Assembly (NCBI GenBank): GCA_017540265.1 | Contig: JAFYBJ010000045.1 | Coordinates: 1 to 46,183, forward strand | Length of the DNA: 46,183 nucleotides | DNA from: Lachnospiraceae bacterium | GTDB lineage: Bacteria; Bacillota; Clostridia; Lachnospirales; Lachnospiraceae | Direction: 5' to 3' | Shown here: positions 7,421 to 34,130 of the stretch, piece after piece | How positions within the stretch are numbered: the first letter of the stretch is position 1 | Layout: every line of letters starts with the position of its first letter | Translations under genes and position numbers: made by a program | Notes under the pieces: model-generated | Told to the model about the DNA's origin: nothing | Database searches by the model: none | The model's input: the letters and a program-made list of their open reading frames with translations, nothing else

Positions 7421-10147
7421 TCATTCCGATATCCTCTCCCACTTATCCTTATCAAAGATATCATCCTTCACGTGATACCACTTTGCTTTATCATCCGGAA
7501 ACCTGTTTCCCTCAAGCATTCCGGAAGCGCCGGAATAAAGCACCTTTACACCGTTTTCTTTACCGGACATATCCACCATATTTCCGGTAAATGGATTCAC
7601 GGCATCTTTTACTATACCTTCAAAAGCTAATGACGGCGTATCCGCATTTGTCATGAATGTATCATCGGTATGAAGGCCCTCGGCATTAAAATCCTTATAT
7701 AAAAGCAGCGCGTTGACAGCTTCAAGATCGGTTCCGTCATCAAGCAGCAGATCTTCAAACTGTCTCATGTTTCTTCCGTGATCCGCAGCGATCACTATCC
7801 TTGTGTTATCATATACGCCTGCTTCACGCATTTTATCGAACCATTCTCCAAGTAGTATCAGCGCCTTTAAGTTTACCTGGAAATGTTCCACTGCATCATA
7901 GTAGGTTCCGCTCTCTTCCATTGTCCTTCCGTCTATGGTCATCGGAACACCCTCAAAATAATCACTGTTGTCCGTATATTCATTTATCACCAGATCCGGG
8001 AGCTGCATATGTACCGGATCGTGCGTCATCTCGTTGCAATATACTAAAAACGTATCGCCTTTATCATCCGAGAATTCAGTATTATCGACAAACCAGCGCA
8101 TCGCAAGTTCATCTTTAACATAATCCTCTTTATATCCCGGATTTATTATCCTGTCGGCTCTTAAGTACTGCCCCTCATCATATATCTCATCCTGTAAGAA
8201 AGCAGGCGCGGCCTTATAAAGTCCGTAGAACACAAAATTTCTTTCCATCATGGAATCCACCTCTTCCCAGCTGTACATACTGTAAAGCGTATCCTTCAGA
8301 TGAAACGCATTCACTTTATCCATTCCGTCGTAAATGGAATAATCCGATGCTTCGTTATAATTTACATAGGGCAGATCACATACGGTCACATCATATCCTT
8401 CATCTCCAAAAAGCTGCGGCATAAGTTTCAATGCTTCATTATGCTTTTCCCTCAGAGTAACATCGGTTCTTTCATTTATGGCATCCGGCGTATATTCATA
8501 TCCTCCGTACAAAGCCGGAGATCCCATATTCGTATATATTCCCATGGATGTGGTATTGGGATAATAAGTAAAACCGTCAAATTTTTCCTTAAGCTCCGGC
8601 CTGTATTCCAGCAGATAGGGGAAATAACTTCCCACCGCGGCATCAAGCATTATCACCATCACATTATTTCCCTCTGCAGACATACAGTATTCCTGCTTTT
8701 CTTTTCCCTGATAATCCAGATGTTCCATTGCGGCAAGAGCCCTGTTTATGCCTGCGGATTTATAGATCATAAAGATCACTGACGCCATAAAGACTGCTAT
8801 AAATACTGTTCCGGCAAAACGTGTTATCAGATCTTTTAATATAAATATCACTGCCGCAATTACAGCCAGTATCAGTATATTTTTTAATCTTTCCGTCAAC
8901 TCAAAGTGCGGCCAGCCCGATCTCCACACCAACATCTGCGTAAGGAAATCAACCCTCTCCGGTTTCAGCATGATCATATCCGCTACAGCCGCGGCAAACA
9001 CTATGATAAGAACTGTCAGATACATTTTTCTTCCATTCTCATCCGCCATAAAAAATATAATGCTTCCCCAGAGAAGAAATATTCCGGCATATACGCACAC
9101 AGAGAAAAATATGAATTCCAATGGCGACCTGTAATGCAATACATTTACAAACTCAAGCGGCGCGGATGCCACAGCCATAAGAGGTATGACGGCACCAAGA
9201 AATAATGTAAGAGACGCTTCCGTAAACAGCACGGCTTTTGCATCCGTCTTCTTTTCTGTCTGAACACCGGAGCATCTTTTTTTGAAAAACCGTGCCGATA
9301 CCTTTTCAAAACACAGTTTAAACAGAGGCATTATTATGATAAAGAAAACCAGGCCGTACATAAGCAGCGCTTCCCTGTCTCCGGAATTTAAACATGCATT
9401 TATCTTTCCCGAAGCATAAGTAAATACCGCATATGCAAAAGCTGCTGCACCCCTGCAGATAAGTGAAAATCTTTTTTTGTTTTTAACAAGTCCGTTTACG
9501 ATATTCTTTACAAGAGAGAAAAGATTGTTCATCGTCCAGTAAAGCACCAGACCCGACGGACTGCGGTAGAGCAGCACCAGAAATACAAGTGCCAAAAGAA
9601 CCGGCTGCACCCTGTCCTTCCATTTAAAACCTTTCGTATATACAGCAGTAGATATGAGATTTATAAAAGTCATGAGTACGGGGAGCACATTGACGGCGAT
9701 GCCTCCTATTGAAAACATCGCATCCTCCGCCCCCATATCCTTTATGGGGCCGAAGCCCAGTCCCCTTAACAGCTCAAGGTTTGAGAGGAAATCATATGCC
9801 GCAAGAAAAAACGGGATCTGTAAAAGAAGTGGGATACTGCCTTTAAGCGCATAAAGAGGTTTGTAGCCCTGCTCGGAATAATAAGCATTTAACATCATGT
9901 ATCTTTCATCACCGCTAAAATTACCCCTGATGTGGCTCATCCATTTTTCCATCTTCTTCTGAACATCCCGCTCTTTTGCCTGAATGGCATCCGCTCTCAT
10001 GTAGAGAGGAAGGACAAGTATGCTTATCACCATGCTGAGAGCTATGACAGCATAGCCGGCATGGCCGAAAAAGGCATTCATTATGGTAAATACTGCTTCG
10101 ATGATATATCTTACGGGCAGTATGATCACGTTGTATAAAACCTGCAT
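7421..10147 (-). CDS. YidC/Oxa1 insertase domain fused to an extracellular sulfatase-like domain (copy A)
   Basis: Residues 1-220 of this 908-residue protein match a Gram-positive YidC core: a helix ending VLPLYMRADAIQ, a charged cytoplasmic loop, the hallmark GSIPLLLQIPFFLAAYDFL, and later helices ending [19 protein letters not shown]. About seven more hydrophobic helices follow (near 230-247, 260-280, 307-330, 343-367, 375-394, 421-437 and 445-463). Their flanking charges place the C-terminus outside. Residues 495-870 form an alkaline-phosphatase-superfamily (sulfatase / LtaS / EptA-like) domain: Asp502 in VMVIMLD, a Thr/Ser-rich segment with a candidate nucleophile near Thr539 (IYTNMGSPALYGG), His709 in EMTHDP, and Asp789-His790 in AADHG. 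The family transfers phospho- or sulfo-groups; the substrate here is unknown. AAGGAAG precedes the ATG. Copy B at 17040 is collinear. A true YidC is about 250-300 residues, so the fusion is striking. Confidence 0.85.
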   Translation of the reverse strand: MQVLYNVIILPVRYIIEAVFTIMNAFFGHAGYAVIALSMVISILVLPLYMRADAIQAKERDVQKKMEKWMSHIRGNFSGDERYMMLNAYYSEQGYKPLYALKGSIPLLLQIPFFLAAYDFLSNLELLRGLGFGPIKDMGAEDAMFSIGGIAVNVLPVLMTFINLISTAVYTKGFKWKDRVQPVLLALVFLVLLYRSPSGLVLYWTMNNLFSLVKNIVNGLVKNKKRFSLICRGAAAFAYAVFTYASGKINACLNSGDREALLMYGLVFFIIIMPLFKLCFEKVSARFFKKRCSGVQTEKKTDAKAVLFTEASLTLFLGAVIPLMAVASAPLEFVNVLHYRSPLEFIFFSVCVYAGIFLLWGSIIFFMADENGRKMYLTVLIIVFAAAVADMIMLKPERVDFLTQMLVWRSGWPHFELTERLKNILILAVIAAVIFILKDLITRFAGTVFIAVFMASVIFMIYKSAGINRALAAMEHLDYQGKEKQEYCMSAEGNNVMVIMLDAAVGSYFPYLLEYRPELKEKFDGFTYYPNTTSMGIYTNMGSPALYGGYEYTPDAINERTDVTLREKHNEALKLMPQLFGDEGYDVTVCDLPYVNYNEASDYSIYDGMDKVNAFHLKDTLYSMYSWEEVDSMMERNFVFYGLYKAAPAFLQDEIYDEGQYLRADRIINPGYKEDYVKDELAMRWFVDNTEFSDDKGDTFLVYCNEMTHDPVHMQLPDLVINEYTDNSDYFEGVPMTIDGRTMEESGTYYDAVEHFQVNLKALILLGEWFDKMREAGVYDNTRIVIAADHGRNMRQFEDLLLDDGTDLEAVNALLLYKDFNAEGLHTDDTFMTNADTPSLAFEGIVKDAVNPFTGNMVDMSGKENGVKVLYSGASGMLEGNRFPDDKAKWYHVKDDIFDKDKWERISE

Positions 10148-16036: not shown

Positions 16037-17008
16037 TTATTTATATGAGGCATATTTTTCGCCGAGCAGTTTTGAATATATCTTTGCACCCTCCGTATTC
16101 AGATGCAGCGGGTGGTTAAAGAAGTATTCCGCGGGAATGGTATAATCCCCGAAGCTTCCCAGTACCGGGGCATTTAACGCCGCTGTAATATCCTCATCAA
16201 AGCTCTCAAACATCCCTTCTTCTTCCGACCAGGATTCCTCCACCGTAGGTGAAAAGCATATGATAAATTCAACACCGTTTTCACCGCACCATGCATTAAA
16301 ATCATTCAGATCGGCTATAGTCTCCGGATCCACCTCATCTATCGTTATCACATCATCATGATCCGTATTCGGAGATATCTGCGTGCCTTCCCTGAGCACC
16401 GTCATATTGCCTTTTTCATCAAAAGAATCTATGTTGTATATCTGTTCCTTTTTTGAAAAGGCACTCCGCAGCTTCTCCACCGGAACAGACGCCGTAAGCG
16501 CATAGATCTTGCGCCAGCAAAGATACGTCTTCGATACTATACCGTATTTTTTCCAGTAAGCGGTAAGCTTCTCCTTATCCGGTTCAAGCGCCGCAGATAT
16601 GGACATAACTGATGTCTCGTGGGGATTTGATTCTCCTAACATATAAATAACCGTATCCCCTTCTTTCGCCGTTTCCCTGAGTACCTGTGTCAGATAAGGT
16701 ATGCCAATGGCTGCCTCTATACCGAGGGTCTGCACTTCCCTTCCGTCGCCTATGCTTTCTTCCAGCGTTTCCTTATCTATCCCGTAAGGCACATATGAGG
16801 ATCCAAAAACTATTACACGGGGATCCCTGTCTGCATCTTCAAGCGCGTATATCTGTTTAAGTAACGCCCTCTGATACGACTTTGCATAAGCCTCCGGTCC
16901 TTTCTCATATTTCCATAAAAACCAGAACAGGGCGCGGAAAAGTACCGTCACCAGAAATACAAATACAATTGTTTTTAATATAAATATTAAAAATTTCTTA
17001 CGATCCAT
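16037..17008 (-). CDS. SGNH-hydrolase-like membrane-anchored protein
   Basis: This 323-residue protein has one N-terminal membrane helix (about residues 5-31, FLIFILKTIVFVFLVTVLF) and an extracellular domain. Block I is VIVFGSSYVPYGID, with candidate nucleophile Ser71. The C-terminal block is EYFFNHPLHLNTEGAKIY with His302. The usual Asp three residues before the catalytic His is His299 here, so the triad may be altered. DltD/AlgX-type SGNH proteins carry out O-acyl transfer on surface polymers. It starts 31 nt after YidC-sulfatase copy B with a GGAG site, so it is probably co-transcribed and may act on the same substrate. Motif similarity is weak, and activity is uncertain. Confidence 0.7.
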   Translation of the reverse strand: MDRKKFLIFILKTIVFVFLVTVLFRALFWFLWKYEKGPEAYAKSYQRALLKQIYALEDADRDPRVIVFGSSYVPYGIDKETLEESIGDGREVQTLGIEAAIGIPYLTQVLRETAKEGDTVIYMLGESNPHETSVMSISAALEPDKEKLTAYWKKYGIVSKTYLCWRKIYALTASVPVEKLRSAFSKKEQIYNIDSFDEKGNMTVLREGTQISPNTDHDDVITIDEVDPETIADLNDFNAWCGENGVEFIICFSPTVEESWSEEEGMFESFDEDITAALNAPVLGSFGDYTIPAEYFFNHPLHLNTEGAKIYSKLLGEKYASYK

Positions 17009-17039: not shown

Positions 17040-19712
17040 TCAGGGCGCCTCCACCGGTACCCAGCTCTTTTCAGAAAAAATACTGTCCTCTATCTCGTAC
17101 CACTGGCCACCTTCTCCTATGTCAAAAACATAACCGTTATTTTTGAGCACATCCCAGCTCTCGGAAAATACCACCTTCTGCACGCCTTCCTTCCTGCTCA
17201 TATCGATCGCATTTCCTGTGTACGGATTTACGGGATCCTCTATCATCCCTTCCATTGCAATTGCCGGCACATCTGCATTTGTCATAAAAGTCTCATCCGT
17301 GCAAAAACCATGGGCGTCAAAATCCTTTACCATGAGCAGCGCATTGAACCATTCTATATCAAGACCGTTATCAAGCACCATTCCCTTTATGTGTTCAAGC
17401 TGTCTTCCGTGATCCGATACGAGTATTATCCTCGTATTATCATAAACATTAAGCTCCCTCATCCTGTCAAAAAGTTTTGAGAGTTCCATATACGCCAGCA
17501 TGTTCACATCATAGTGCCCTTCCTGATAAGGCGTTTCAAATTCAAGAACATTTCCCTTATCATCCATAAGTTCATGCTCTGCATGATAAGCATCATTGTT
17601 GATATTTTTTGCAGGCTTATACTCCGGCTTCTTAAGCAGCATGTTATCGTGCGCCGTGTCATTATCCATCATAAGGAAGGTTCCCTTGTCGTCCGTAAGC
17701 TTTACATACGAAGGAAGCTTATCAAGAATATAATAGGCTTCGGAATAATCCGGTTCTGAAGCTTTCTCGTCAAAATACGCTCCGCTGTCATACATAAGCA
17801 GCCTTAATGTATAAGGCATCACTCTTGTGAGCGCAAAACGGAAGAAACTGTGTTCCTTTATATATTCCAGTTTTTCATCCGTTTCTTTTGTAATGGCACT
17901 TCGTCCCGCATCATATGCCTTCACATTTTCCATTCCGTCATATATTGAAAGATCGGGGACAAAGCTGTATCCGGCATAAGGAGGATCGATGACAGTTACC
18001 TCGTATCCGGCATCACCAAATACCGCCGGCATCACCTTAAGCGCCTCATCATGCTTGTCCCTTAAAAGCTCCGTATCTCTTTTATCTATCCTCTCCGGAG
18101 TATAATCATATCCGCCAAAAAGTCCCGGCGCGCCGAAGTTTGTAGAAGTTCCGTAGCTTGTCACATCCGGGTACCATACAAAACCATCAAATTTCTCCTT
18201 AAGCTCCGGAGACTCATTCATTATATATGGCACATATCCGTCAATTGCCCTGTCAAGCATTATGACCATTACATTTTTTCCTTCAGTGCTTAAAGGGATC
18301 TCCGGCTCACCTGTATTTCCCGTAGCCGCATTTTCAAGATAAACTTTATATTCACTGTTTATGACATACAGGTTTTTTATGCCAAGTCCCGTAACGGCAA
18401 GCGCCATCGATATGATGATAAGACGGGTAAACTGTCTTTTTCTGCTGATCAATATCCCTGCAAAAGCGGTCACTGCAAGGATCACAAGATTTGTAAGCTG
18501 GCCCGCCGCCTTTATATCCGGACCTTTTTCATAAACAAGCGAAGGGGCAAGTGTTTCCAGATCAAATTCAAAGAAGAGATAATCAGCTGTAAATATAAGG
18601 GCTGTGGCAAATACTCCGCCTGCAAATCCCTTCTTTGCCTCATCACCGCTCAGTGCATAGAACACCGACATCCACAGTCCGAAAGTGCCTAAGGATACCG
18701 GAAGCGCATGCAGCACATATCTTACGGGATTCAACGGATTTACCGTTGATACAAATTCAACCGGCGATGATGCTATGACCGCTGAAGGTATGAGCAGTCC
18801 CGTGAGTAAAAATAAAAATGCAGCTCCGCATATATATAAGGCGTTTATTTCTTTTAAAGCAGCGATATCAGTCTTTGTATTCTTTTTCTTAAATATCCCG
18901 CAGACAGCAGGAAGGCACATCATGCATCCTGTCAGTCCGATAAGTATATTGTGGGTATAATTGCTTCCCTTTGTGATAAAAGCAACATACACAAACAAAA
19001 GAGCTCCGATCCCGCAAGCCCCGTACTTAAAGAGTTTTACGGGTGGTTTAAGCTTGTAAAAAATATTTTTCACAAGCGAAAAAAGATTATTCAAGGTCCA
19101 GTAAAAAACCAGTCCCGCAGGGGAATCATATAAAAACACAAGAAATACAAGGGCCATTGTGTAAAGCTGCAGCCTGCTCTTAAACGGCATGCCTTTTGTG
19201 TATATGGCGCCGGATATTATATTGATAAGCGTCATAAGAACAGGCAGTATGTTTATGCTTAACGACGCAATGGTTAAAAGAGCATCGGGTTTTCCGAGAT
19301 CCGCTATGGGACCGAAAGATACACCTCTTATGCCGCCGTAACCCGAAAGGAAACGATATGCAGCTATGAAGAAGGGTATCTCAAGAAGAAGCGGCAGCAT
19401 ACCGCCAAGCTGTGAGACAGCGCTGTAATCAGATTCCTTATAATAGGCCTGCAGCATCATAAAGCGCTCATCACCGGAAAAATTCTTCCTGATATGTGAT
19501 ATCCAGGGCGACAGCTTCTTTTCTTTCTCGGCAGCCGCAGCCTGTATCATATCTGCTCTTCTGTAAAGAGGCAGCACAAGAAAATTCATCGCCAGGGAAA
19601 GCGCTATTATCGAAAGCCCTTTGTTCCAGAGAAAATCATCCGCCAGTCCGTAGACTGTTTCAAAAAAAATCTCCAGAGGACGTATCGTTATATTATAGAT
19701 AAACGATATCAA
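17040..19712 (-). CDS. YidC/Oxa1 insertase domain fused to an extracellular sulfatase-like domain (copy B)
   Basis: This is an 890-residue paralogue of the 7421-10147 protein, collinear over its length. Residues 1-220 are YidC-like ([54 protein letters not shown]). A multi-helix membrane block follows to about 450, then the sulfatase-like domain: Asp487 in [22 protein letters not shown] with candidate nucleophile Thr524, His688 in DTAHD, and Asp767-His768 in VSDHGR. The start codon is TTG (19710-19712) inside TTGA, overlapping the uvrC stop by 4 nt. AGGAGG lies about 11 nt upstream, and alignment with copy A supports this start. The SGNH-like gene follows at 31 nt. It is translationally tied to uvrC but functionally unrelated to it as far as can be seen. 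Confidence 0.85.
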
Positions 19713-29938: not shown

Positions 29939-31105
29939 TTACTGCAGAAGCTGCAGAACCTGCTGGGGTCTTTCATTTGCCTGTGCGAGCATCGATATAC
30001 CGGCCTGTGTGAGTACCTGATGGGTCGTATAAGTCGTCATTTCCTCGGCCATATCCACATCCATTATCCTCGAGTAGGAAGCTGTCATGTTTTCTTCGGA
30101 AACTGCCACACTTGCGGAATTGTGTTCCAGACGGTTCTGGTATGCGCCGAGCTTGGAACGCACCGCATTTACGTATGCCAATGCCCCCTTTACGGCTTCT
30201 ATAGCCCTTTCGGCTCCATCCTGTGTGGTAACATCCATTCTTTCGGGATCATCCTCATCATCCGGTATTCCCATATTTGAAAGAGATATCTTCCTTATCT
30301 GGATGGCGATCTCATTTCCTTCGTTTGCACCTGTCTGTATCTTCATGGCACCTATGCCGGTGATATCAAGCTCCACATTTGCAGCGGAAGATGCATCCAG
30401 ATCAAGCCTCAGTTCAAAACCGCCTGCGCCCTTTATGGTAACTTCCGTCTTTACATGATTTCCGTCCGCATCACTTATCTGTCTTGCGTTTGCACTCAGG
30501 GTTGAAACCTCGGGAAAGCCCGAATCCGCGCCTCCCAGGGAACTCATTATATCGGCTGCGCTTATGGCTCCGTCCGCGTTATATAATGCAGCCGTGTTGC
30601 TTATCGTATATTTGCCGGGATCCACATCCTCGGTATAATAATCCACCTTTGTATGTTCGGGATCGCTGCTGTATCCCTTAAGATCAAAGCTTCCGTCAAG
30701 CAGAGGCTGGCCGTTGAATTCGGTATCCTTCGCTATCCTGGTGATCTCCTTCTGGAGCTGCTCTATCTCGGTCTGTATCATTTCCCTGTCATCATCGGTA
30801 AGAGTAGCATTACCCGCTTTCACGGAAAGCTCGGTCATTCTCTGGAGTATGCTGGTAACCTCTGAAAGGGCACCGTCTGCTGTTTCAACAACGGATATTC
30901 CGTCATTGGTATTTCTGCCGCCCACTCCAAGACCCGAAATCTGAGCGTTCATCCTGTTTGCTATGGCAAGTCCTGCCGGGTTGTCCTTTGCATGATTTAT
31001 CTTAAGTCCCGAAGAAAGACGCTGCATTGACTCACTCATCAGGGCATCATTCCTGTTGAGCGTCTTATTCGTAACTACCGCGCTGGCGTTATAATTTATT
31101 CTCAT
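29939..31105 (-). CDS. fliC: Flagellin
   Basis: Flagellin is the filament subunit. The 388 residues have the conserved N-terminal D0/D1 part (MRINYNASAVVTNKTLNRN; QRLSSGLKINHAKDNPAGLA) and the C-terminal D1/D0 part (GAYQNRLEHNSASVAVSEEN; QVLTQAGISMLAQANERPQQ, ending QLLQ). A variable surface domain of about 150 residues lies between them. The C-terminus has the usual hydrophobic/Gln-rich motif read by FliS and the export gate. The ATG overlaps the stop of the FliK-like gene (ATGA) and has GGAGGA upstream. It is unusual to see an abundant filament protein coupled to a large upstream gene. Confidence 0.97.
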   Translation of the reverse strand: MRINYNASAVVTNKTLNRNDALMSESMQRLSSGLKINHAKDNPAGLAIANRMNAQISGLGVGGRNTNDGISVVETADGALSEVTSILQRMTELSVKAGNATLTDDDREMIQTEIEQLQKEITRIAKDTEFNGQPLLDGSFDLKGYSSDPEHTKVDYYTEDVDPGKYTISNTAALYNADGAISAADIMSSLGGADSGFPEVSTLSANARQISDADGNHVKTEVTIKGAGGFELRLDLDASSAANVELDITGIGAMKIQTGANEGNEIAIQIRKISLSNMGIPDDEDDPERMDVTTQDGAERAIEAVKGALAYVNAVRSKLGAYQNRLEHNSASVAVSEENMTASYSRIMDVDMAEEMTTYTTHQVLTQAGISMLAQANERPQQVLQLLQ

Positions 31106-34100
31106 ATTCTTCCTCCGTCCATGGTTCTGCCTACCGTCTGTATAAAAAGCTTTGATGCTCTGTAAAGCACTGCCGTATCACGGCTGCTGTTATCTTTATC
31201 GGCATTTCTTCCCGAAAGCTTAATACCCATATGCTCCGTAAGGAAGATATCCGTTCCCGCAAATGCGATCCCTGCCCTTTCCATGGCCTCTTCAAGCCCG
31301 TCTGCGATATGCGGCTGCTCCGCCTTCATTATTTCCGAAGATGTGAATATGCCTATCTTTACCGCTTCTCCCGCAAATTCTATCCTTGCCGTAAATTCAC
31401 CGTAAACGGAAGTTTCCATGTTTATATCCGAAAAAGCCGTGCCTCTTCCTTCATGAAGTATCCTTACCGTGACGGAACTCATCTCTCCGTCTATCTCCAT
31501 GGGTATCTCGTAGCTTTCCTGCCTTGAGAGCTCTCTTGATACGTGAAGCTCCTTCATGGCAAGGGAATAATCCCTTACGTCTATCCTCTCTCCCTCACCA
31601 AACGCTGCTCCTGTAAGAGCCTCCTCCAGCGCATCCGCCATTTCTTCGTAAGCCGCTTCAGCACTTTCCCTGCCGTCAAATTCATCTATAACTTTTGCAA
31701 ATTTTTCACGTATAAAGCTGTCCGTGAGGATACCGGCTGCGCTGTCTGAATCATTCTCCGAAAGAGCCGCCTTCTTTGCCGCCTTAAATAAGCTGCCCCT
31801 GTTACTTCTCATGGCAGCAAGTCCCGCTACATGATCTGCCGTGGCTATCACACCGCTCTCCGTAAGCTCTTCATAAATCTCTGAAGGAAGGCCTGCCGCT
31901 TCTCTTATCGAAGCCATGCTCTGAGCTGCCTTTGCCTCATCATAAGCGGTCCTTACCTGCTCATATATATCATTTTCTATATTTCCGTTCATTCCGGTAT
32001 AGAGATCATCCACGCTGACATCCATACCTCTTGCCCTGCTGCTCCTTACCGCGCTTAAGATATTTACGAAGTTTATCTCAGCACCTTCATTTACAAGAGC
32101 ACCTATGGCGGCGCCGTCATTTTTGCGGGTTTCGCGTATCAGTCTGTATATGCCTATGAAGGATTCGCTTTCCTCCTCGCTTATAAGGCCTTTTTCTCTA
32201 AGATCTACAAGATATTCACTGTATTTCTCCGGTGCCTCTTCGGTAGTGAGCTTTTCATCCAGCTCCTCCATTGAAAGCTTAAGAGGATCGTCTCCGTTCC
32301 TTATAAGCGAGAGCACATTGGCAGGTGTCATCTTGTCCAGCACCTTATCCACGAAACGGCATGTCCGCTTCATATTTTCAACGGATGCTCCGTTTATCTC
32401 CATTGAATTGTATCCGAGTATCCTTACGGCTCTTGAATTTTCCTCAGTTAGTTCAATGCCAAGCTCCTTCATAAGGCTGTCCGCATTTGCAAAAGCCTTC
32501 TTTATGGAATCACCCAGATCTGACCTTACCTCCGTGCGCATGGTCTCATAGGCCTCGCCTGCCTTTTCATATTCAAGGCGCCGCTTTGTGCCTTCATCCC
32601 TTAATTCCGAAAGAGAAACACTGCGTATGGAATAGCTCTGTTCAAAAGAAACACTTGCAGAAACAAAGACTCCCAGAGCCGAAACCGGCATATCCTTTAT
32701 CTCATCCGCAGTCTTAAGCGTCTCAGAGTAAAGAGCTGCTCTTACGGAAGCTTCTCCCGCGTCATCGCTGTTAAATCTTTCGCGGTTTATCTCTTCCTCG
32801 GCAGCCTTTAACATTACCACCAGATCCTTAAGCTCTGCGGTATCCAACGACGCTCCCTGTTTTAAAAGCTTAAAATTCGCCTCCACAGTCATTACCAGTC
32901 TGGTCTCTTCAAGCTGTCTGCGCGCGGTGATAAATCTTTTCTCCGGAAACTCTGCTTCTGTTCCCGCGTTTATCCCGCCGTTAAGCGCCTTTTGCAGGTT
33001 ATTAAGGTTTACAGGTCTGTCTGCCGCAACAAGTGCCCTGAGCGCCTCCGGATCATTTGCAGCCTCATCTGCCGTCTCTTTCATTTCCACAGCAGTCTCA
33101 AGAAGGCTCTTATCCCTGCTCACATCCGCCTGCAATGCAGATAAACCGTCAGATACCGCAAGCGCTGCTGCCTTTATCACTTTATCTTTATCCATGGGAA
33201 AACGTATATCATCCATGGACGTATACCTGACAAAATTCTCCGCCGTGACCGCAATGCCGTTGTCCATCATATCGGCGGCATGCTTAAGTGCCGCGTCATC
33301 AACTTCCATTCCCGCATCTTCTATCACTTTTCTGAAAGCGGGTTCCAGCTCTTTTACGGAAGAAACGCCCTGCACTCCCAGATATCCGTTTTCGGAAACA
33401 TAGGAATTTGAAGCCTTAGCGGCAGGCGCATTAAATGATTCGGGCACACTGTGCTCCGCATAATATATATTCTCAAGTGTGGGCTTAAGTCCGTTTTCTA
33501 TAAGATATGCCTTTGTTTTTTCATCCGGTGTCTCAAGCTTATCTGCCATATCTGCAGCAGCCATCATATCATTTACATTCTGCTTACTAAGCCTTATTCC
33601 CGCTTCCGAAGCTCCTTTTTTTAAGGACGCTGCCATGGAAGCGCTGCCTGTTATGGTTTCAAGCTGCTCATCGCTTAAGTCATCATTGAACCCCTGTATC
33701 ACTACACCCGCTTTTAACATGGTGGCGCGTATCCTGTCTCCGCTGTTTACAGCCTCCTTCGGATCCACATTTTCCAGGGAATATCCGTCCTTAGCCGCCT
33801 GTTTAAAACCTTCTTCGGAAAGCGTGTTTGAAAGCAGGACCATCTTATCCTTAAGCACTTCCCCGTCCGCAGCTAAAGAAAGTCTGTCCATAAACTCTCC
33901 GGCAGCGCTCTTTTTTCCCGCGTCGACGGAAATGATGCCACCGCTTCCGCCAAGATCTATATTTACGCCTGAAACAAGCCCGGAAGCTGTCTTTTTCTCA
34001 TCATCAAAAAATCCCGTCACATGACCTGATGCCTGCATTCTGCCTGCATCTGTAGTCACCGCGGGACTAAAAGCCTCGTATGCATTTTTTACCATCTGTC

Positions 34101-34107
34101 CGTTCAT
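31102..34107 (-). CDS. Large FliK-like flagellar protein (hook-length control type, tentative)
   Basis: This is a 1001-residue, Ala/Glu/Ser-rich, mostly helical protein with no signal peptide. I start it at the ATG at 34107 because GGAGGG lies 9 nt upstream; the in-frame GTG at 34116 abuts that site. The long middle has repeated acidic helical segments. Near the C-terminus, MEIDGEMSSVTVRILHEG-type beta strands, EFTARIEFAGEAVKIGIFTS and a helix IADGLEEAMERAGI resemble the FliK/Flg_hook C-terminal core that switches export specificity. It lies just downstream of a sigma-28-type promoter and is coupled to flagellin by ATGA, so a late flagellar role is likely. FliK is normally 350-550 residues, so the size is unusual. 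The identity is inferred from fold pattern and context. Confidence 0.6.
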   Translation of the reverse strand: MNGQMVKNAYEAFSPAVTTDAGRMQASGHVTGFFDDEKKTASGLVSGVNIDLGGSGGIISVDAGKKSAAGEFMDRLSLAADGEVLKDKMVLLSNTLSEEGFKQAAKDGYSLENVDPKEAVNSGDRIRATMLKAGVVIQGFNDDLSDEQLETITGSASMAASLKKGASEAGIRLSKQNVNDMMAAADMADKLETPDEKTKAYLIENGLKPTLENIYYAEHSVPESFNAPAAKASNSYVSENGYLGVQGVSSVKELEPAFRKVIEDAGMEVDDAALKHAADMMDNGIAVTAENFVRYTSMDDIRFPMDKDKVIKAAALAVSDGLSALQADVSRDKSLLETAVEMKETADEAANDPEALRALVAADRPVNLNNLQKALNGGINAGTEAEFPEKRFITARRQLEETRLVMTVEANFKLLKQGASLDTAELKDLVVMLKAAEEEINRERFNSDDAGEASVRAALYSETLKTADEIKDMPVSALGVFVSASVSFEQSYSIRSVSLSELRDEGTKRRLEYEKAGEAYETMRTEVRSDLGDSIKKAFANADSLMKELGIELTEENSRAVRILGYNSMEINGASVENMKRTCRFVDKVLDKMTPANVLSLIRNGDDPLKLSMEELDEKLTTEEAPEKYSEYLVDLREKGLISEEESESFIGIYRLIRETRKNDGAAIGALVNEGAEINFVNILSAVRSSRARGMDVSVDDLYTGMNGNIENDIYEQVRTAYDEAKAAQSMASIREAAGLPSEIYEELTESGVIATADHVAGLAAMRSNRGSLFKAAKKAALSENDSDSAAGILTDSFIREKFAKVIDEFDGRESAEAAYEEMADALEEALTGAAFGEGERIDVRDYSLAMKELHVSRELSRQESYEIPMEIDGEMSSVTVRILHEGRGTAFSDINMETSVYGEFTARIEFAGEAVKIGIFTSSEIMKAEQPHIADGLEEAMERAGIAFAGTDIFLTEHMGIKLSGRNADKDNSSRDTAVLYRASKLFIQTVGRTMDGGRI

Positions 34108-34130
34108 GGGCAACACCCTCCTGCAATATT

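Follow-up and report, generated by a model that had tools for sequence, protein, structure and literature searches.

The window analysed here is a stretch of 46,183 nucleotides, contig JAFYBJ010000045.1 of the Lachnospiraceae assembly GCA_017540265.1 (genome G000 below). On its minus strand lie two paralogous genes that join a YidC/Oxa1 domain to a domain of the alkaline phosphatase superfamily, an arrangement (YidC-7TM-phosphotransferase fusion) that we call type A. Functional labels of genes are profile-based throughout, and the genomes compared are drafts. The features are as follows.

7421..10147, minus strand: copy 1, YidC-7TM-phosphotransferase protein of 908 aa (ORF and translation; Pfam; 1182.5 bits against family profile A3)
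9497..10057, minus strand: YidC/Oxa1 domain of copy 1, residues 31-217 (PF02096, E 1.4e-22)
8750..9466, minus strand: seven further hydrophobic segments of copy 1, about residues 228-466 (family-averaged hydropathy)
7508..8680, minus strand: predicted extracytoplasmic alkaline-phosphatase-superfamily domain of copy 1, about residues 490-880 (PF00884, E 3.4e-4, below the cut-off; D502, T539, H709, D789-H790)
17040..19712, minus strand: copy 2, paralogue of copy 1, 890 aa, TTG start, 40% identical to copy 1, both domains over the Pfam cut-offs
19056..19619, minus strand: YidC/Oxa1 domain of copy 2 (PF02096, E 1.8e-27)
17391..18278, minus strand: phosphotransferase domain of copy 2 (PF00884, 28.3 bits, cut-off 25)

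Copy 1 is a single intact frame of 908 codons that starts with ATG, and the initial annotation had its coordinates, length and uninterrupted reading right. The YidC core claimed there is borne out by a PF02096 match of 80.9 bits (cut-off 35) over residues 31-217. The C-terminal half matches PF00884 at residues 495-809 with E 3.4e-4 and 20.5 bits, under the curated cut-off of 25; the whole protein of copy 2 reaches 26.9 bits and passes it. In an alignment of 54 family members (A3: 51 of the 97 full-length type A frames, at less than 60% identity, and the three copies of G000), PF02096 is matched by all 54 and PF00884 by 45 (E ≤ 1e-3). Beyond the YidC core, family-averaged hydropathy gives seven segments, with peaks near residues 236, 271, 317, 355, 385, 430 and 453; the fifth YidC helix has no separate peak at the threshold used. 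The content of K and R places loops 57-102 and 282-307 in the cytoplasm and the C-terminal domain outside, with a weak bias for the last loops. The seven added helices and the outer position of the catalytic domain that had been proposed agree with this picture to the same extent.

Residues D502, T539, H709, D789 and H790, four of which had been named together with a Thr-rich nucleophile segment, are invariant in all 54 rows; by analogy, they may serve as metal ligands and nucleophile. T539 occupies the place of the Cys or Ser of sulfatases, which we take to indicate a phosphoryl-transfer type with a Thr nucleophile rather than a sulfatase. A formylglycine sulfatase was rejected because Thr, not Cys or Ser, stands at the assigned nucleophile place in 54 of 54 rows. 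The word sulfatase in the initial annotation therefore describes the fold alone, with PF00884 matches in most members and invariant residues, and copy 1 itself remains under the cut-off. The fusion is unlikely to be the LTA synthase of the cell, since a further PF00884 protein, which stands alone and has 767 aa, is encoded in G000 as a putative alternative.

The genome carries three fusion copies. The third lies on contig C13 (L004:4958-7669) and is 35% identical to copy 1; both this gene and copy 2, in the same window as copy 1, had been overlooked. Copies 1 and 2 have no rnpA or yidD neighbours in the window, and no TagF-like or head-group gene adjoins them. Directly downstream of copy 2 lies an ORF of 323 aa with no Pfam match (16037-17008, minus strand). 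Elsewhere in the window, a DUF6240 protein of 1004 aa (31102-34116, minus strand) adjoins flagellin and FliS genes.

The fusion is a YidC part with an outward-facing enzyme found in some gut and rumen bacteria. A scan of the species collection gave at least 561 stretches at tblastn E ≤ 1e-3, some of which may be plain YidCs. From the best 80 of these we kept 78 loci, all of which match nearly the full-length query: by record title, 34 from Lachnospiraceae, 19 from Oscillospiraceae, 17 from Clostridia with no family assignment and 8 others, including two Coriobacteriia and one member of Negativicutes (Schwartzia). ORF calling recovered the type A frame at 75 of the 78, and in L074, L076 and L099 a longer frame on the opposite strand masked it. 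The fusion is present in 17 of 24 genomes of the genus of the window and in none of 16 others of the order; the search across the family that had been suggested found it in 16 of 299 genomes, and a sample of the phylum in 3 of 398, with G000 counted in both samples. A small number are broken or incomplete (G010 contig C9; the second copy on G008 contig C90). A contig of 4.3 kb recorded as uncultured Treponema (L073) also carries a close relative, through either transfer or mis-binning.

The neighbourhoods link the fusion to a partner gene and to head-group genes. The partner, a protein of about 430 aa with the TagB/TagF domain PF04464, is encoded in the flanks of 51 of the 78 best loci. At 45 loci the two genes touch and share a strand, with the partner upstream in 34 and downstream in 11 (gaps of -153 to +43 bp), and at 6 the partner lies in the flanks but is not adjacent. 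It was not seen in the flanks of the remaining 27, some of which are short at contig ends. Against a cut-off of 22.1, PF04464 scores 36.9 bits in L069 and 34.8 bits in the partner gene of G000 itself. An alignment of 27 TagF-like proteins (A4) shows that the N-terminus has one hydrophobic segment with the conserved start YIDPGTGSMLF, followed by basic residues, so the catalytic part of the partner is probably cytoplasmic. The YIDPGTGSMLF segment is an unusual and strongly kept membrane anchor.

Occurrence across genomes gives the same association. Of 32 genomes with the fusion, 29 have a full-length partner (E < 1e-100); of 43 without it, none has (Fisher 1e-17, phylogeny ignored). The 32 genomes comprise 17 of G000-G023, 14 from the family sample and G356, with none of G024-G039; the 43 consist of 7 genomes from the genus, 16 from elsewhere in the order and G436-G455, which are 20 of the no-match genomes in the family sample. 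When only other genera were compared, the partner was present in 14 of 15 genomes with the fusion, all from different genera, and in 0 of 20 without it (Fisher 6e-9). No partner match was found in the fusion-bearing genomes G001, G014 and G647, and the sole match in G007 contains a stop. G015, which has no fusion, gave a weaker match of the fused type (E 1.8e-56).

In congeneric genomes the two components also occur as one chain. Proteins of about 1,200-1,400 aa hold YidC, PF04464 and PF00884 together, either in the order YidC-TagF-phosphotransferase (L040, L041 and L042, the last with PF00884 at E 0.0017, under the cut-off) or in the order phosphotransferase-YidC-TagF (L043 and L044). Judged by hydropathy, both orders are compatible with TagF inside and the phosphotransferase outside if weak segments are counted. 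In L059 a chain of 639 aa joins YidC and TagF with no phosphotransferase and lies among genes of AEP transaminase type, PEP mutase and nucleotidyltransferase. Two CotH-kinase-domain proteins (PF08757; L040:1598-3406 and 7480-9417) flank the YidC-TagF-phosphotransferase chain of L040. In a YidC tree built with 20 of the 54 type A rows, type A and the TagF-containing chains (types B and C) fall on opposite sides of a branch with support 100/100. The two groups are not joined in the free tree, as separate capture of YidC by each would predict, but a single origin of their YidC domains is not rejected (AU p 0.42).

Head-group genes lie at 25 of the 78 best loci, 22 of which also have the partner. 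The phosphonate type was seen at 6 loci, choline-kinase/Lic-like or EamA genes at 10, and a CobD-like aminotransferase-nucleotidyltransferase at 5; the last, in which a nucleotidyltransferase is joined to the CobD-like aminotransferase beside the system (L131:10073-11890, L060, L078, L079 and L130), could supply another activated head group. On contig C37 of G000 a single run encodes an AEP transaminase, the partner, a cytidylyltransferase-PEP mutase fusion, an NTP_transf_3 protein and a phosphonopyruvate decarboxylase. Within it TIGR02320, TIGR03297 and TIGR03301 exceed their NCBIfam equivalog cut-offs, and PF12804 exceeds its own. The fusion genes of G000 lie outside this run. The run recurs in the congeneric genome G004, where its proteins are 61-88% identical and a fusion gene stands between PEP mutase and nucleotidyltransferase. 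Among the G000 copies this gene most resembles copy 3 (44% identity); its identity to copy 1 is 35%. PEP mutase (E < 1e-50) was found in 19 of the 32 genomes with the fusion and in 3 of the 43 without it (G015, G033 and G451). The domains, the invariant residues, the operon, fusion and co-occurrence links to the TagF-like protein and the links to head-group genes are all established at the level of sequence. The relatives in L062 and L065, placed close to copy 1 by the tree, have glycosyltransferase and ABC-transporter-like genes around them (the ABC label in L062 was given by sight), which suggests that the acceptor may be a surface glycan.

It is doubtful that the fusion is simply the housekeeping insertase with an inert tail. 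The initial annotation had named this as the reading that would overturn its own, together with a check for a canonical yidC beside rnpA in the same genome. Neither canonical yidC nor rnpA was found in the assembly of G000, which is 72.9% complete, but the congeneric genome G002 has a separate rnpA-yidD-yidC locus (yidC of 443 aa) apart from its fusions. This locus and the three copies in G000 disfavor the housekeeping explanation. The rnpA gene was located in L024, by ORF reading and Pfam, and in L020, by sight.

At the groove position, the YidC part differs from the canonical YidCs of other genera. None of the 54 type A domains has K or R there (N 36, S 16, G 1, Q 1). All 14 canonical YidCs taken from other genera and all 10 domains of types B and C carry R or K. 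In the portion of PMC8920935 consulted, the positive residue is called strictly conserved, yet a neutral one is tolerated if residue 517 is aromatic or hydrophilic, so that context decides. The canonical YidCs of the genus (L018, L020, L021 and L023-L032) have Tyr in 12 cases and Asn in 1. With all 13 of these also uncharged, and given the context effect, we dropped the loss of groove charge as proof that the insertase function is lost. W204, presumably the equivalent of E. coli Y517, and N207 are invariant in the 54-row alignment, and the cytoplasmic hairpin is strongly kept. E. coli YidC scrambles lipids in vitro, as stated in the part of PMC10491306 consulted; a lipid-moving role of the YidC part is thus possible by analogy.

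From these links we propose an envelope-decoration system that works from inside to outside. In the cytoplasm a nucleotidyltransferase would make a CMP- or CDP-activated head group, which by gene content would be 2-aminoethylphosphonate in G000 and a choline-type group in some other lineages. The membrane-anchored TagB/F-like enzyme would pass this group to a lipid-linked acceptor at the inner face. The YidC part would hold the machinery at the membrane, and its groove would be the way of the loaded lipid to the outer leaflet, where the Thr-nucleophile domain would transfer the phospho- or phosphono-group to a glycopolymer at the cell surface. We are fairly confident that the outer domain is a phosphotransferase or phosphodiesterase that works with the TagF-like partner in head-group decoration. 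That the fusion is, more specifically, the outer-face enzyme that places these groups on a surface polymer seems to us about evenly balanced between right and wrong. Several observations count against the scheme: the copies in the window have no TagF-like or head-group neighbour, some loci and genomes with the fusion show no partner, head-group genes lie at a minority of the loci, PEP mutase also occurs in three genomes that lack the fusion, and the PF00884 match of copy 1 is under its cut-off. The TagF-like partner and the head-group genes lend indirect support to the earlier guess that a lipid-linked donor for the outer enzyme is handled by the YidC part. Translocation by the YidC part is a tentative step of the scheme, and we would likewise put forward only with reserve that the domain was recruited from protein insertion as a dedicated lipid path between TagF-like loading and the outer phosphotransferase. 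Our confidence falls from the positions of the partner (inside) and the enzyme (outside), through the phospho- or phosphono-nature of the head group and transfer in place of hydrolysis, to a lipid-linked donor and finally to carriage in the YidC groove; we infer the transfer, the lipid donor, the glycan acceptor and the groove movement.

The chemistry of the outer domain could be read otherwise. It would be a hydrolase, a phosphodiesterase that removes or recycles surface groups linked through phosphate, if the best profile matches to solved structures were taken at face value: phosphonate monoester hydrolase (E 1.6e-6) and choline sulfatase (6.2e-6) precede LtaS (0.0024) and MCR-1 (0.38). However, these matches lie mainly over the DHG motif common to the superfamily, and operons and fusions couple the outer domain with activating and transferring enzymes; we consider hydrolysis improbable. 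It is also conceivable, though quite improbable, that the TagF-like protein builds a chain of the poly(alditol phosphate) type inside the cell, that YidC aids its export and that the outer enzyme links or extends it. PF04464 takes in the polymerising TagF, and one-chain fusions occur here. Against such a polymer, the units encoded nearby, choline-type groups and aminoethylphosphonate, resemble terminal groups, which cannot chain alone.

Two further explanations concern the YidC part. It may be a scaffold only, which docks the TagF-like partner at the membrane and keeps the outer enzyme in place, with any lipid donor flipped by another protein. The strongly kept cytoplasmic hairpin, the joining of YidC to the TagF-like domain even where the phosphotransferase is missing, as in L059, and the absence of the positive groove residue from all type A domains fit a scaffold; an anchor alone would not need the entire YidC core, which is retained with W204 and N207 invariant, and the in vitro scrambling described in the consulted part of PMC10491306 also speaks for a more active role. 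We regard the scaffold as possible but doubtful. A specialized insertase that still inserts membrane proteins, for example its own enzyme part or glycan-export proteins, would explain a PF02096 score far over the cut-off, and the tolerance of a neutral groove residue beside an aromatic neighbor (PMC8920935, in the portion consulted) accords with invariant W204. Nevertheless, the fusion is multi-copy, patchy (present in few genomes of the family sample) and constantly paired with an envelope enzyme, and G002 keeps a separate yidC by rnpA, so that this explanation is very unlikely. We retain the inside-to-outside decoration scheme, at the graded strengths given above, as our preferred reading.

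If the YidC part is a transport path, such a role would be new in kind, and decoration of the cell surface with phosphonate- or choline-type groups would be a surprising task for an insertion machine. The fusion offers a natural test of purposeful lipid movement by YidC-type proteins. It also bears on annotation, because insertase models pick up the fusion genes even though a separate yidC is present in at least one congeneric genome.

Among known systems, the YidC/Oxa1/Alb3 insertases (SpoIIIJ, YidC2) share the PF02096 core, and the family profile matches solved YidC chains with E values from about 1e-10 to 7e-5. The fusion differs from them in its seven added segments and outer enzyme, its multiple copies, the uniform absence of a groove K or R and its position outside the rnpA-yidD locus. 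LtaS and EptA/MCR have an outer domain of the alkaline phosphatase superfamily with a Thr nucleophile. The fusion resembles them in this domain and in the invariant Thr at the nucleophile place, but the profile matches to LtaS and MCR-1 are weak, and its membrane part consists of YidC and the seven segments. The partner passes the PF04464 cut-off as do the TagB/TagF CDP-glycerol glycerophosphotransferases, from which it differs by its N-terminal YIDPGTGSMLF segment and by lying often beside head-group genes, not known teichoic acid genes.

The closest parallels in gene content are the Lic system for phosphocholine, with nucleotidyltransferase, choline kinase and EamA genes at some loci, and the Pnt system for phosphonates, with genes for PEP mutase, phosphonopyruvate decarboxylase and AEP transaminase. 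The abstract of Rice 2019 (PMC6697681) calls the later Pnt steps 'enigmatic'; the text of that paper names LicD-like transferases, and a term search of it gave no mention of YidC or sulfatase. In the loci studied here, by contrast, the transferring part is apparently the TagF-like protein together with the YidC-fused outer enzyme. Literature searches of open-access PMC articles found no description of the fusion or of its gene linkage. How phosphonate-like head groups travel from cytoplasmic CMP or CDP donors to surface polymers is unsettled, and the fusion and its partner provide a concrete linked gene pair in many Clostridia. All of the single domains are already known, and the system files with the known surface-decoration systems.
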